IMG/VR virus record: IMGVR_UViG_3300035198_000094
Span: 1-25,005 of that record
Reading direction: 5' to 3' (one strand)
DNA: 25,005 bases
From: a virus
The notes beneath the pieces were generated by a model. That model was not told the DNA's origin and ran no database searches. It saw nothing but the letters and a program-made list of their open reading frames with translations. Shown here one piece after another: positions 6,521-22,923 of the stretch. Numbering within the stretch: the first letter of the stretch is position 1; each line of letters begins with the position of its first letter. The translations under genes were made by a program, and so were the position numbers.

Positions 6521-7096
6521 ATGTGCCAATTTGCATCTTTCAAGTTCCAGCCTTGCGGCAATGTGCCGGTGGTTGTAGCCGACCTTTTCTCCCACGGCGA
6601 GACCGAAAAGACCCTGAAACTTCCTCCCGACGCGGGAGCGGATGGCTGGCACGACGGTCACTATTTGCCCACGGGGGAGATCCTCTGTCGCGGCGTCGAT
6701 GGCGATACCCTGACGCCAAGGCAGTGCGAATCCGCGATACGCGCCCGCTGGCCGACCTTTACCGCGTTCTGGTCTTGGGCAATGCGGCAGCCTGGCTGCA
6801 AGACCCTGACGGGGCTCTATCTCTGCCACACCAAGGTGGCGGACCTCTCACCACTGGCGGGCTGCAAGACCCTGACGTGGCTCGACCTCTGCCGCACCGA
6901 AGTGACGGACCTGTCGCCGCTGGCTGGCTGCAAAGCCCTGGCGAGCCTCGACCTCTCCTACACCGAGGTGGCGGACCTGTCGCCGCTATCAGGCTGCAAA
7001 GCCCTGACGTGGCTCGTCCTCTTCGGCACGAAGGTGACGGAGAGCCAGGTGGCCGCGCTGCGGCTGGCGCTTCCGAAGTGCAAGGTATCGACCTGA
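6521..7096 (+). CDS. Leucine-rich-repeat protein
   Basis: The 191-residue protein starts at an ATG after GAAAGGAGTGC. The N-terminal 85 residues (beginning MCQFASFKF) resemble a cap domain seen on other phage and bacterial small proteins that start with MC-F. From about residue 95 there are three to four repeats of 22-23 residues, L..L.L..T.V.DLSPL.GCK.L, each starting with variants such as LTWLDLCRTEV. The repeats should form a short curved LRR stack with a variable exposed face, usually a protein-binding surface. The DNA repeats are nearly identical, so copy number could change by recombination. The partner is unknown. Confidence 0.75.
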   Translation: MCQFASFKFQPCGNVPVVVADLFSHGETEKTLKLPPDAGADGWHDGHYLPTGEILCRGVDGDTLTPRQCESAIRARWPTFTAFWSWAMRQPGCKTLTGLYLCHTKVADLSPLAGCKTLTWLDLCRTEVTDLSPLAGCKALASLDLSYTEVADLSPLSGCKALTWLVLFGTKVTESQVAALRLALPKCKVST

Positions 7097-11067: not shown

Positions 11068-11182
11068 CCTGCAGAGGCGGCTGGACGTGCTCGGCGACGG
11101 GCGGGCGGCGCTGGCGAAGGTGGCTGACGCGCCGCTGTTTGAGGCCGCGCCGGGCACGCTGGCTCCGGGCGGCGGGGGCTGA
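11060..11182 (+). pseudogene. Internally deleted methyltransferase remnant
   Basis: This 40-codon ORF joins the start of the methyltransferase to its end. It begins MTDLQRRLDVLGDGRAAL, matching VDVFGDGRAVL of the full gene, with 18 identical bases (8323-8340 and 11091-11108). It then jumps to AKVADAPLFEA, matching PKVADAPLFGG, with 25 of 26 bases identical (9728-9753 and 11116-11141). All catalytic motifs are lost. The frame is intact, so a short peptide could still be made. Confidence 0.7.
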
Positions 11183-11194
11183 GGCGGATTTTGC

Positions 11195-11224
11195 TTGACA
11201 GCCCTACCGTCCTTATGGTAGGGT
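11195..11224 (+). promoter_or_regulatory. Sigma-70 promoter with palindromic operator in the spacer
   Basis: TTGACA (11195-11200) lies 18 bp from TAGGGT (11219-11224). The spacer holds a perfect 7-bp inverted repeat, CCCTACC (11202-11208) and GGTAGGG (11217-11223), which overlaps the -10 box and is therefore well placed for repressor binding. The predicted start, about 11231-11232, coincides with the first base of the structured leader. Confidence 0.7.
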
Positions 11225-11231
11225 GACACTT

Positions 11232-11355
11232 GGAAGGCACAAGGCACAGTAGCATGAAACGCGACTCAAAAGGAACCGGTGTAGTTCGTCAGGGACAGGG
11301 CGCTACTGTGCCTTGCCTTCCACCCTGGCGGACTACATCGGTTTCTTTTGGAGTC
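11232..11355 (+). ncRNA. Structured 5' leader with two interleaved long stems
   Basis: Two long complementary pairs interleave in the order 1-2-1'-2'. Stem 1 pairs 11232-11253 with 11302-11321: 20 bp with a 2-nt bulge at 11239-11240. Stem 2 pairs 11268-11294 with 11323-11349: 27 contiguous bp including four G-U pairs. It is extended by GACTC (11263-11267) with GAGTC (11351-11355) after one bulged G. All wobbles are G-U in the + strand RNA and would be A-C mismatches on the other strand, which argues for + strand RNA function. The loops are too short for both full stems at once, so this is either a partial pseudoknot or a two-state switch. The GGAG ribosome site of the next gene (11350-11353) lies in the 3' arm of stem 2. 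Confidence 0.8.
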
Positions 11356-11385
11356 CCCAATGTCAAGGCGACCTGTGACCTCTAA
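11254..11385 (+). CDS. Possible leader peptide within the structured RNA
   Basis: A 43-codon ORF begins with MKRDSKGTGVV directly after the first arm of stem 1, runs through both stems, and stops 23 nt past the start codon of the next gene in another frame. AAGG at 11241-11244 is a possible ribosome site but would be buried in stem 1. Translation would open the stems and couple to the downstream start. Expression is not shown; the ORF could be accidental. Confidence 0.35.
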   Translation: MKRDSKGTGVVRQGQGATVPCLPPWRTTSVSFGVPNVKATCDL

Positions 11386-12361
11386 TCGCGACACCGACAA
11401 CCCGTGGTTTCCTTTTTTTGTGCAAGATTACATGGCCGACGAGGCGGTAAAAAGCGTCTCCTTGGCGGCACAAGGTCTGTGGGTGAGAATGCTCTGTTTG
11501 ATGCACCGTTCTCCCCGTCGCGGTATCCTATTGAAACCGAGCGGCGAACAGCCTGATAGCAAATGGCTGGCAAGTCAGATAGGTGCTTCTGAACCGGAAG
11601 TTGCGGAACTTCTAAAAGAATTGGAATCAGAAAAGGTGTTTTCACGCAACGAAAACGGCTCTATTTACAACAGGCGCATGCGAAAAGAAGCGTTGGTATC
11701 GGAACGCAAGGCTAAAGCGGGCCGGCTCGGCGGGCTGGCAAAAGCCAAGCAGAAAAACACGCCTCTTTTTGATGAGTTTTCAGATAGCAAATCGCTAGCA
11801 GCCTCTGGATCTGGATCTGGTTATGGATGTGGTTGTAGTAGTAAAGAGGATGTTGTTAAAGAAGAAGAAGAAGAAGAAAAAAAAGAAGAAACGGGACCCC
11901 AAAGCAAGACGAAAGCAAAAGGAAAGCAAAATGAAACTGAAAAAGAGATTATCATACTCTATCAGCAGCGCGTGAAATCAACCGTCCAGGGCGACACCAG
12001 CGGACCCCAGGCCCGCAAGAACGTGGCCCGACTCATCCGCGAAGGCCAGACACCCGCCGACCTGCGCCAAGCCGTCCTCAACTATGCCGACTTCTGTACC
12101 ATCCTCGGCAAAGAACCTCAGTTTCGCAAGAACGCCGGGAACTTCTTCGGGCGCGAGGCGGTGTACGAGGGTTTCCTGCCGCAAGCCTACAAGAAGCCGC
12201 AACAACCGGGCGGAGGCGAAAAGCCCTGGCGCAATTTTGACATCGATGGGCCGCGCCCGATCCCCCCGCCGGCCTACTTGGACGAGGTGACGGGCGGGCC
12301 GTTGCCGGACTGGTTAAAGGAGTTAAGGGCCGGAACGAAAAAAGAGGAAGCCAAATCTTGA
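11360..12361 (+). CDS. Phage replication initiator / primosome-like protein
   Basis: The 333-residue protein starts at the ATG at 11360, 6 bp after GGAG; a TTG at 11348 is possible. The N-terminal domain, with NPWFPFFVQDYMAD and SLAAQGLWVRMLCLM, has the winged-helix pattern of phage replisome organisers (DnaD/DUF1376-like). A low-complexity linker follows (about 140-195, Ser/Gly then Glu/Lys runs). The C-terminal part (about 195-280) resembles a DnaD/helicase-loader-type helical domain. The gene immediately precedes DnaB, so recruitment or loading of the helicase at the origin is the likely role. The linker DNA is strikingly AT-rich. Family is inferred from pattern and context. Confidence 0.7.
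   Translation: MSRRPVTSNRDTDNPWFPFFVQDYMADEAVKSVSLAAQGLWVRMLCLMHRSPRRGILLKPSGEQPDSKWLASQIGASEPEVAELLKELESEKVFSRNENGSIYNRRMRKEALVSERKAKAGRLGGLAKAKQKNTPLFDEFSDSKSLAASGSGSGYGCGCSSKEDVVKEEEEEEKKEETGPQSKTKAKGKQNETEKEIIILYQQRVKSTVQGDTSGPQARKNVARLIREGQTPADLRQAVLNYADFCTILGKEPQFRKNAGNFFGREAVYEGFLPQAYKKPQQPGGGEKPWRNFDIDGPRPIPPPAYLDEVTGGPLPDWLKELRAGTKKEEAKS
11804..11890 (+). repeat. Hexamer repeats and AT-rich/GAA tract (candidate origin)
   Basis: Six consecutive degenerate hexamers (TCTGGA, TCTGGA, TCTGGT, TATGGA, TGTGGT, TGTAGT) occupy 11804-11839 and are followed by a purine tract of GAA triplets (11861-11890). The base composition is far more AT-rich than its surroundings. In lambda-like and lactococcal-type phages the origin lies inside the initiator gene, as repeats next to an AT-rich segment; this region fits that plan. 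Confidence 0.45.
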
Positions 12362-13761
12362 ACCGAATGAACCGACTCGAACAGGCCCTGGTACGCGGTC
12401 GCCCTGCCTACGACGGCATCCACGAGCAACAGGTCTTGGGGATGATGCTGATGGACCGTTCCTGGTTGGAGCGCGGGCTTGCCGAACTGGATGCGACCGA
12501 CTTCATGGAACCGCGCTACGGAGCCATCTTGAACCTGCTGCGCGACCTTGTGCGGAAAGTGCCGTTTGAAGACTGGCCTGTGGAGCAGGCCGTTCTTGAC
12601 GCCCTGGCCACCAAGCCGATTGAGGGCGTTAACTTGGACTACCTGCGGCAGACCTGCGATACCTTCGCGGCTACGAGCGCGATGCGGTACTACATGACGC
12701 GGCTGAAAGACCTTGCGCGCCTGCGCAACCTCGAATCGTTGGGATGCAGGCTGGTGATTGCCGCGCGGGAACCGAATGCCGACCCTGTTCTAGTGGCCGC
12801 CGAATGCACGACCGCGCTGTCGAACGCCATTCGGACCATCGCCCGCGACGACGGGACGACGTTGGCCTGCGCGGAAAACTTGCTTGTGAAACGCGAAACA
12901 AAAGGCTTTTGTCTTGGCGTCGAGTGCCTGGACAAGTTGATTGGCCAGATCGAGTACGGAAACTTCTGCATCATCGCCGGAAGACCGGGGACTGGCAAGA
13001 CGGCGTTTGCCACCCAAACGGCCCTCAAGTTGGCCATTACTTATTCCATTCCCGTGGCCTACCTGAGCCTGGAAATGTCGAAAGAGAGGCTGTTGAATCG
13101 CATGGCCGCGCAGTGGGCCAGCGTGCCGCTCGCCAATGTTCGGCATCGCCACTACGGCGTGGACGGACAGGGTTCTCAAAAAGACCGCGTAGAGCGTTTC
13201 GTTGCGGCCCTGCGGGCGGCGCCTCTTCGCATCTTTTATCTGCCGGGTGCTGGCGTTGCGCAGATTAGCAGCATCGTTCGGGCCTTGGCGGCGTCCGGGG
13301 CGTGTCGAATAGCCTTCGTGGACTATATTCAGAAGTGCCCGACGCCGGGGAATGCCGAGAGCCGGCATGTCGGCGTTGCGGCAAATGTCCGCGACCTCTG
13401 CGCCCTGGCGGGGCAGACCTGCATTGCCATCATCGCGTGCAGCCAGATGCGACGTGAAACCGACCGCACCAAGACCATCGAGTTGGATTTGCTGTCCGAG
13501 ACGCAGGCGCTTGAGCAAGAGGCCGACATCGTTCTGATGCTTACGAAGGAGCGCGAGGCCGAGGAAGCCACCTTCACAATTGCCAAAAACCGTGATGGCG
13601 AAACAGGCCAGCGCACCCTGGGCTGGCAAGGATCGTATGTCAGATTCGTCGAGAAGTTCGAGGCGGTTGGCGGTTCTTCACCTTCCGGGCTGATTCGGGA
13701 TGGCGCGGAGTGCGACTTCGAGCAGGTGGACGATGGGCCAAACTTGGAGGGCGTTGCATGA
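12358..13761 (+). CDS. dnaB: Replicative DNA helicase, DnaB family
   Basis: The 467-residue protein has the two-domain DnaB layout. The helical N-terminal domain (about 1-110) begins with HEQQVLGMMLMDRSWLERGL. The RecA-like ATPase domain has Walker A GRPGTGKT (208-215), YLSLEMSKERLLNRM, Walker B RIAFVDYIQ, ACSQMRRET and the ALEQEADIVLMLTKE segment, ending in KNRDGETG. It unwinds the parental strands ahead of the phage fork as a hexamer. The TTG at 12358 overlaps the preceding stop (TTGA) and has GAGGAAG upstream; the ATG at 12367 is the alternative. It should work with the preceding initiator-like protein. Confidence 0.95.
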   Translation: MNRMNRLEQALVRGRPAYDGIHEQQVLGMMLMDRSWLERGLAELDATDFMEPRYGAILNLLRDLVRKVPFEDWPVEQAVLDALATKPIEGVNLDYLRQTCDTFAATSAMRYYMTRLKDLARLRNLESLGCRLVIAAREPNADPVLVAAECTTALSNAIRTIARDDGTTLACAENLLVKRETKGFCLGVECLDKLIGQIEYGNFCIIAGRPGTGKTAFATQTALKLAITYSIPVAYLSLEMSKERLLNRMAAQWASVPLANVRHRHYGVDGQGSQKDRVERFVAALRAAPLRIFYLPGAGVAQISSIVRALAASGACRIAFVDYIQKCPTPGNAESRHVGVAANVRDLCALAGQTCIAIIACSQMRRETDRTKTIELDLLSETQALEQEADIVLMLTKEREAEEATFTIAKNRDGETGQRTLGWQGSYVRFVEKFEAVGGSSPSGLIRDGAECDFEQVDDGPNLEGVA

Positions 13762-20047: not shown

Positions 20048-20506
20048 TGCCGCGCCGCGCCTGGCCGCGCCGAGCCTTGCCTAGCCTCGCCTGCCGTGCC
20101 CCGCCCCGCCCGGCCTTGCCCGACCGGGACTTGCCATGCCTGCCGCGCCGCGCCCTGCCGCACCCGGCCGCGCCCCGCCAGGCCGGGCCTCGCCGCGCCT
20201 GCCATGCCTTGCCGCGCCTGCCGTGCCTTGCCGCGCCGCGCCTGGCCCCGCCGAGCCGCGCCGGGCCTTGCCTGGCCACGCCCCGCCAGGTCGCGCCTTG
20301 CCTCGCCCCGCCATGCCCTGCCTGCCCTGCCTTGCCTGGCCCACCCGCGCCAGCCGCGCCGAGCCTTGTCCAGCCGCGCCGTGCCTTGCCCGGCCGCGCC
20401 CAGCCTTGCCTCACCTGCCCTGCCGCGCCGCGCCTGGCCCAGCCGAGTCAGGCCGAGCCTGGCCCGGCCATGCCATGCCTTGCCCGCGCAGCCACGCCAG
20501 GCCGCG
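20048..20506. repeat. Degenerate GCCNN pentamer array 1 (about 460 bp)
   Basis: GCC recurs every 5 bases with two free bases between (for example GCCTTGCCTAGCCTCGCC), occasionally slipping to a 4-base step (GCCTGCC). About 90 units are present. Nearly all NN combinations occur, so this is a fixed GCC with random spacer rather than a plain tandem repeat. The minus strand is (NNGGC)n, i.e. GG every five bases, which can form two-layer G-quadruplexes. All frames stay open across it only because stop triplets are excluded; no gene is supported. Confidence 0.9.
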
Positions 20507-21687: not shown

Positions 21688-21830
21688 CCGCGCCTGCCAC
21701 GCCGCGCCGTGCCTTGCCAGGCCGCGCCACGCCGAGCCTTGCCTAGCCCCGCCTGCCTTGCCGTGCCTTGCCACGCCCGGCCGCGCCCGGCCATGCCCTG
21801 CCTGCCATGCCATGCCTTGCCCTGCCATGC
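21688..21830. repeat. Degenerate GCCNN pentamer array 2 (about 140 bp)
   Basis: The same GCCNN pattern as array 1, in the same orientation, with about 28 units. The two arrays share the 19-base segment CGCCGAGCCTTGCCTAGCC, so they are related. This array lies upstream of the leftward two-gene operon and directly before the terminator. The 87 bp between it and the ATG at 21600 hold the operon leader; no clear promoter was found there. Confidence 0.9.
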
Positions 21831-22853: not shown

Positions 22854-22906
22854 GCAAACGAAGCGGCAATGCAGGTGCCTGCTCACCTGTATTGCCGCTT
22901 CTTTGC
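22854..22906 (+). promoter_or_regulatory. 23-bp RNA hairpin upstream of the portal gene
   Basis: An 18-bp stem (22860-22877 with 22884-22901, one G-U pair, loop CCTGCT) is extended by GCAAA (22854-22858) with TTTGC (22902-22906) after a single bulged base. No T-run follows, and the portal ribosome site lies 10 bp beyond, so RNase III-type processing or translational control is likelier than termination. Confidence 0.65.
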
Positions 22907-22923
22907 TGCCCGTAGGGTGAAAC

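Follow-up and report, generated by a model that had tools for sequence, protein, structure and literature searches.

The window, which is the whole stretch of DNA analysed here, is a complete record of 25,005 bases from an uncultured bacterial virus. A gap at about 11182-11359 separates two gene blocks, and in this gap lies the leader of a replication operon, with two long complementary stems whose arms interleave. The features of the locus are as follows.

11195-11224, + strand: putative promoter, read from the sequence and weak (TTGACA, 18-nt spacer, TAGGGT)
11202-11223, no strand assigned: palindrome CCCTACC-8-GGTAGGG, spanning the spacer and the -10 element
11231-11253, + strand: arm 1, the 5' side of stem 1; joined to arm 1' by 21 pairs, with a 2-nt bulge at 11238-11239
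11254-11385, + strand: small upstream ORF of 43 codons from ATG 11254, in the frame of an ORF at 11230-11385
11263-11294, + strand: arm 2, the 5' side of stem 2; joined to arm 2' by 32 pairs, including four G-U, with no mismatch
11302-11322, + strand: arm 1', the 3' arm of stem 1, pairing with arm 1
11323-11355, + strand: arm 2', the 3' arm of stem 2; abuts arm 1' and holds GGAG 11350-11353, with G11350 bulged and GAG paired in the stem 2 state
11360-12361, + strand: replisome organizer / replication initiation protein, the gene proposed to be controlled; PHROG 13246 (E=2e-11) and PHROG 270 (E=1e-10), with relatives of the N-terminal domain
12358-13761, + strand: DnaB-like replicative helicase, second gene of the operon; PF03796 (E=1e-44) and PHROG 19 (E=7e-65)

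The matches to replisome organizer and DnaB helicase families bear out the first-pass annotation, which had described an initiator-like gene at the head of a replication operon. The 3' end of the initiator gene overlaps the start of dnaB (12358), and its product probably starts DNA copying. Inside the initiator gene, the segment 11700-12000 is A-rich (41-48% GC) and carries short direct repeats (an AAG run, and AAAGCAAAACG repeated 3.3 times); by analogy with lambda O it is a candidate replication origin. Distant relatives of the N-terminal domain of the initiator occur in Pseudanabaena phage Pam1, Sinorhizobium, many viral contigs and alphaproteobacterial genomes, and initiator relatives are found mostly in the last two groups. 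The window is mosaic: its terminase and head-tail connector genes have relatives of 43-60% (L004-L022) on contigs that lack its replication module.

Elsewhere in the window, two long low-complexity arrays with a five-base rhythm (20048-20480 and 21691-21830; GCCNN repeated, for example GCCGC GCCTT GCCAT), with imperfect copies at periods of 10, 15 and 20, flank two minus-strand genes that follow the terminase gene. Tandem repeats of 66 bases at 6794-7041 encode what looks like 22-residue leucine-rich repeats. Between an HNH-type gene and the head-tail connector gene lies a near-perfect hairpin (22854-22908; about 24 pairs, 6-nt loop, fold z = -5.5), which is possibly a terminator or a processing site.

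Both interleaved complementarities claimed by the first-pass annotation are present in the leader of about 124 nt, with 21 and 32 pairs in the arm order 1-2-1'-2'. The pairs of stem 1 are all Watson-Crick, with no G-U, and its 5' arm reads TGGAAGG[CA]CAAGGCACAGTAGC, where the bracketed CA is the bulge. In stem 2 the G-U pairs are 11273/11344, 11279/11338, 11286/11331 and 11289/11328, and the sole interruption is the bulged G11350. The linkers between the arms measure 9 nt (11254-11262), 7 nt (11295-11301) and 0-1 nt, and the two stems share no nucleotides. As had also been claimed, the leader ends on the ribosome site of the initiator-like gene: GGAG 11350-11353 lies in arm 2', inside stem 2, 6 nt before ATG 11360, and the stem itself ends 4 nt before that ATG.

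Pairing of this kind is far outside chance expectation. Dinucleotide shuffling of 11225-11390, repeated 3000 times, never produced a single helix scoring above 37, where the real sequence has 63.5. For the weaker member of two interleaved stems the shuffles reached no more than 25.5, against 36 in the leader, a value that counts only the 14-bp core of stem 1; none of the 3000 gave such an interleaved stem pair. The RNA fold of the leader has z = -7.2, and 0 of 200 shuffles folded as well. A scan of both strands in 1.56 Mb of related and comparison sequence found six places, the leader included, where uninterrupted runs of 14 bp or more interleave, and the only other locus to combine a run of 14 with one of 28-29 bp is a palindromic-repeat locus of Mesorhizobium. 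By duplex energy alone the leader is not unique, since several GC-rich loci hold imperfect interleaved pairs that are equally strong. What is unusual in the leader is the near-perfect pairing, the compactness (about 125 nt), the position on the ribosome site and the moderate GC content.

The + strand folds to -78.9 kcal/mol and the - strand to -61.8 kcal/mol. The difference arises in stem 2, whose four pairs outside the Watson-Crick set are each G-U in the + strand RNA. The first-pass annotation had read these four arm differences as the mark of a selected RNA. They are indeed all G-U on the + strand, and a neutral process would give this outcome with a probability of 1/16, so that they lend weak support to a + strand RNA. 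A function on the minus strand was rejected, given the weaker fold and the four A-C mismatches there.

The leader had been said to begin at a predicted transcription start. The -35 element (TTGACA, 11195-11200) is indeed perfect; the -10 element (TAGGGT, 11219-11224) matches at three of six positions, and a consensus promoter scan lists no site for 11195-11224. The promoter is weak, and the start of transcription putative. The palindrome at 11202-11223 occurs once in the window, where shuffled sequence would give 0, and may be a repressor operator. Between 10900 and 11800 there is no terminator-like site on the + strand and neither stem is followed by a poly-U tract, which does not suggest transcription termination; a transcription attenuator or intrinsic terminator, with a GC-rich stem and a T run, was rejected accordingly. 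A scan of the same interval for promoters of the consensus type found none on the - strand.

Folding calculations rank the two stems clearly. For the full leader (11231-11385) the stem 2 state has an energy of -78.0 kcal/mol and the stem 1 state -57.4 kcal/mol, and in the computed ensemble stem 2 has a probability of 0.97, with the Shine-Dalgarno sequence buried. When the chain is folded as it grows, stem 1 is the minimum for 3' ends at 11308-11340, and stem 2 from 11341 onwards. Stem 1 is thus predicted to form first. With stem 1 forced, the four bases of GGAG 11350-11353 are unpaired with probabilities of 0.03, 0.56, 0.27 and 0.02, their partner being local sequence, so that the state in which the site would be used is not cleanly open.

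Because no base is shared, neither stem can displace the other base by base, and they conflict only through the lengths of the connecting segments. We estimated joint states with a coarse three-dimensional model of rigid A-form rods and worm-like-chain linkers, which ignores threading and clashes between chain and helices and whose accuracy is no better than several kcal/mol. The model allows strained pseudoknots in which both stems are almost complete, at about -68.7 kcal/mol, or about -70 kcal/mol once the chain normalisation is corrected for a constant of about 1.6 kcal/mol, which favours the pseudoknot; they lie 8-10 kcal/mol above stem 2 alone. The claim that the full stems cannot coexist thus holds roughly as a matter of energy, and fails as a strict matter of geometry. 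With stem 1 present, stem 2 can lose 0-8 pairs from its ribosome-site end at almost no cost in the model (-64.6 to -66.6 kcal/mol, with one value of -63.9 and a noise of about 1), whereas the five outermost pairs of a stem 2 that stands alone contribute 7.9 kcal/mol. Stem 1 is therefore predicted to loosen the ribosome site without abolishing stem 2. Pairing between two leader molecules was also considered, and rejected since it does not relieve the geometric conflict.

We hypothesize that the leader is a cis-acting element of the + strand RNA that controls translation of the initiator. Some form of translational control by the leader RNA is probable. Our main reading, to which we give a probability of roughly 0.4, is that control would be on early and off late. 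The resting, closed form would be stem 2, whose 32 pairs bury GGAG. Stem 1 would form first as the RNA leaves the polymerase and, while it holds, would allow stem 2 only as a strained, partial pseudoknot, in which the ribosome site is cheap to open; later relaxation to stem 2 would shut translation off. The initiator would then be made mainly from young transcripts, tying its supply to ongoing transcription, and stem 1 may in addition shield the 5' end from decay. This reading is drawn from one sequence rather than from covariation; within it, we infer the start of transcription, the lifetime of the stem 1 state and any effect on translation. A stricter version, in which the interlocked, base-disjoint stems act as a topological timer, the first-made stem keeping the second away from the ribosome site purely through geometry and each new transcript yielding a pulse of initiator, is a bolder and rather doubtful proposal. 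Refolding in less than 1 second, or over longer than the life of the mRNA, would leave no timer. The first-pass annotation had pictured an RNA that switches between two states or forms a partial pseudoknot. A + strand RNA element in the leader of a replication operon is supported; the two-state switch is a conjecture, as the stems pair different nucleotides, are not alternative partners of one strand, and exclude each other only by geometry.

The same arms can be read through the small upstream ORF. Its start adjoins arm 1, its frame crosses arms 2, 1' and 2', and its stop lies about 25 nt inside the initiator gene; AAGG 11241-11244, within arm 1 and 9 nt upstream of ATG 11254, is a possible ribosome site. 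By analogy with repY-repZ of IncI-alpha, translation of this putative ORF could control the initiator by coupling: stem 1 would hide the ribosome site of the ORF, and a ribosome in arm 2 would melt stem 2 and free the initiator site. The position of the ATG directly after arm 1, the AAGG, and a frame open across all arms and overlapping the initiator start fit such coupling, as do computed folds with segments blocked as by a ribosome. Blocking 11236-11269 leaves the last two bases of GGAG unpaired (0.71 and 0.65), and with a block over 11262-11292 stem 2 is lost and stem 1 returns. Against this, the ribosome site of the ORF is weak (-3.3 kcal/mol, against -5.9 kcal/mol for that of the initiator), an open frame of 43 codons is unremarkable, and no homologue of the ORF was found. 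We consider coupling unlikely as the main function of the leader.

Long duplexes such as stem 2 are plausible substrates for RNase III, and RNase III sites are established in phage leaders such as those of lambda N and T7. Stem 2, a duplex of 32 bp interrupted by one bulged base, could therefore serve mainly as such a site, cutting of which would free the ribosome site or set the life of the mRNA, with stem 1 protecting the 5' end or modulating access. We regard this as improbable, as it leaves the second, interleaved stem unexplained.

Relatives of the leader were sought by several routes. Blastn against phages and against plasmids gave none, pattern scans of viral contigs gave 3 and 2 matches that were all due to chance, and comparison with 385 alphaproteobacterial genomes gave only chance matches of 17-30 nt. 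A search for homologous leaders beside initiator relatives, through which the first-pass annotation had hoped to find covariation, turned up such a leader at 0 of about 130 loci, all of them distant (up to about 51% identity); no close relative of the initiator was found, and none of the head-tail connector relatives (L004-L022) carries the replication module of the window. In several Mesorhizobium genomes, palindromic repeats (ATCTCCCCC...) lie directly upstream of prophage-type initiator genes (upstream of position 2985 of L132, L141, L131, L128 and L145). These hairpins, which we take to be rhizobial palindromic repeats, were rejected as homologous leaders, being repeats without a sequence match to the leader.

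It is quite unlikely, in our estimate, that the leader has no selected RNA function and consists of quasi-palindromes made by template switching, or of a palindromic mobile repeat that landed by chance before the gene. The lack of a homologue and the repeats before initiator genes in Mesorhizobium are compatible with this origin, and arms 1' and 2' abut exactly, as they would after two successive template switches. However, rhizobial palindromic repeats occur in many related copies, whereas the leader is single-copy in the window and was not found in the phage, plasmid, viral-contig and alphaproteobacterial sequences searched; the end of stem 2 coincides with the ribosome site; and wherever the arms differ, the transcribed strand can still pair as G-U. 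Unless they are kept, long inverted repeats also tend to be unstable. An integron attC site, a transposon end and a telomere hairpin were each considered and rejected, as there are no core boxes and no second copy and the arms are too far apart.

At the gathering score, Rfam finds only a tRNA in the window, and no family or described riboswitch matches the leader; when E values up to 10 are admitted, microRNA hairpin models are all that the leader hits, with scores far below the cut-off, as a generic effect of long hairpins. This agrees, as does a limited check of the literature, with the earlier remark that no leader of such a layout has been described. Single long leader stems are not rare in phages: ten regions of isolate phages (about 310 kb) include stems ahead of the phi11 antirepressor (22 bp), a P1312 gene (24 bp) and LC3I3 gp51 (25 bp). 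None of them is crossed by a comparable second stem. These are single stems of 20-25 bp with loops of 27-100 nt before early genes, whereas the leader has two crossing stems. In or before early genes, single stems of 21-25 bp were observed at L197:4332-4439 (phi11), L188:10295-10371 (P1312), L190:15775-15925 (LC3I3) and L191:8066-8190 (Acquire49), and some end by a ribosome site; single-stem leaders are possibly a wider class of RNA-controlled phage genes. A different arrangement is found in Gordonia phage Twinkle (L194:8390-8485), where a perfect inverted repeat of 22 bp, probably paired operators, lies between the immunity repressor and a divergent early gene.

Each half of the proposed mechanism is already known: delayed folding from MS2, and leader pseudoknots from IncI-alpha and T4 gene 32. 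In IncI-alpha and IncB plasmids the initiator gene repZ has its ribosome site in a stem, an overlapping small upstream ORF and a pseudoknot topology; a short, loop-based pseudoknot serves as the translational activator, and regulation is by an antisense RNA. PMC10724649 gives the primary references for this system. The leader resembles this system in its initiator gene, hidden ribosome site, putative overlapping upstream ORF (11254-11385) and pseudoknot topology, but has two long interleaved stems and no visible consensus promoter for an antisense RNA on the - strand between 10900 and 11800. In the MS2 maturation leader, a transient structure on new RNA permits translation and the stable structure hides the Shine-Dalgarno sequence (PMC6071253; PMC6733600). 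Likewise, the predicted final stable structure here, stem 2, buries the Shine-Dalgarno sequence. Stem 1 is predicted to come first, but leaves GGAG partly paired. However, MS2 is an RNA phage, with a cloverleaf as final structure and a short transient hairpin, whereas the leader belongs to a DNA-based phage and its stems are very long, base-disjoint and interleaved.

In T4 gene 32 mRNA, gp32 begins to bind at a pseudoknot that lies 67 nt ahead of the start codon, and the ribosome site is unstructured (PMC3014915). The leader shares with it a phage replication protein, a possible leader pseudoknot and proposed translational control, but here the ribosome site lies inside stem 2 instead of in unstructured RNA downstream of a pseudoknot. 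The T4 precedent (PMC3014915), and a replication protein gene placed under a leader able to form a pseudoknot, would suit an RNA operator: the initiator, or some other protein of phage or host, would bind the leader in its pseudoknotted form and hold down its own synthesis, as gp32 does. Known operator pseudoknots are much shorter than the stems here, and of the explanations weighed here we give this one the least credence. The layout of the leader is unusual, and it does not clearly belong with any of the MS2, IncI-alpha and T4 gene 32 systems.

If early-on, late-off control by the leader is real, it would be a case of a DNA phage in which the dosage of the initiator is set by the folding time of an RNA. 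The leader would also be a natural test case for the co-transcriptional folding of two very long crossing helices, a regime that lies beyond nested-structure prediction. A 2010 review described the T4 gene 32 pseudoknot as perhaps the only viral pseudoknot in translational autoregulation (PMC3014915), and a second one, with a different layout and placed in a replication operon, would be of interest beside it.
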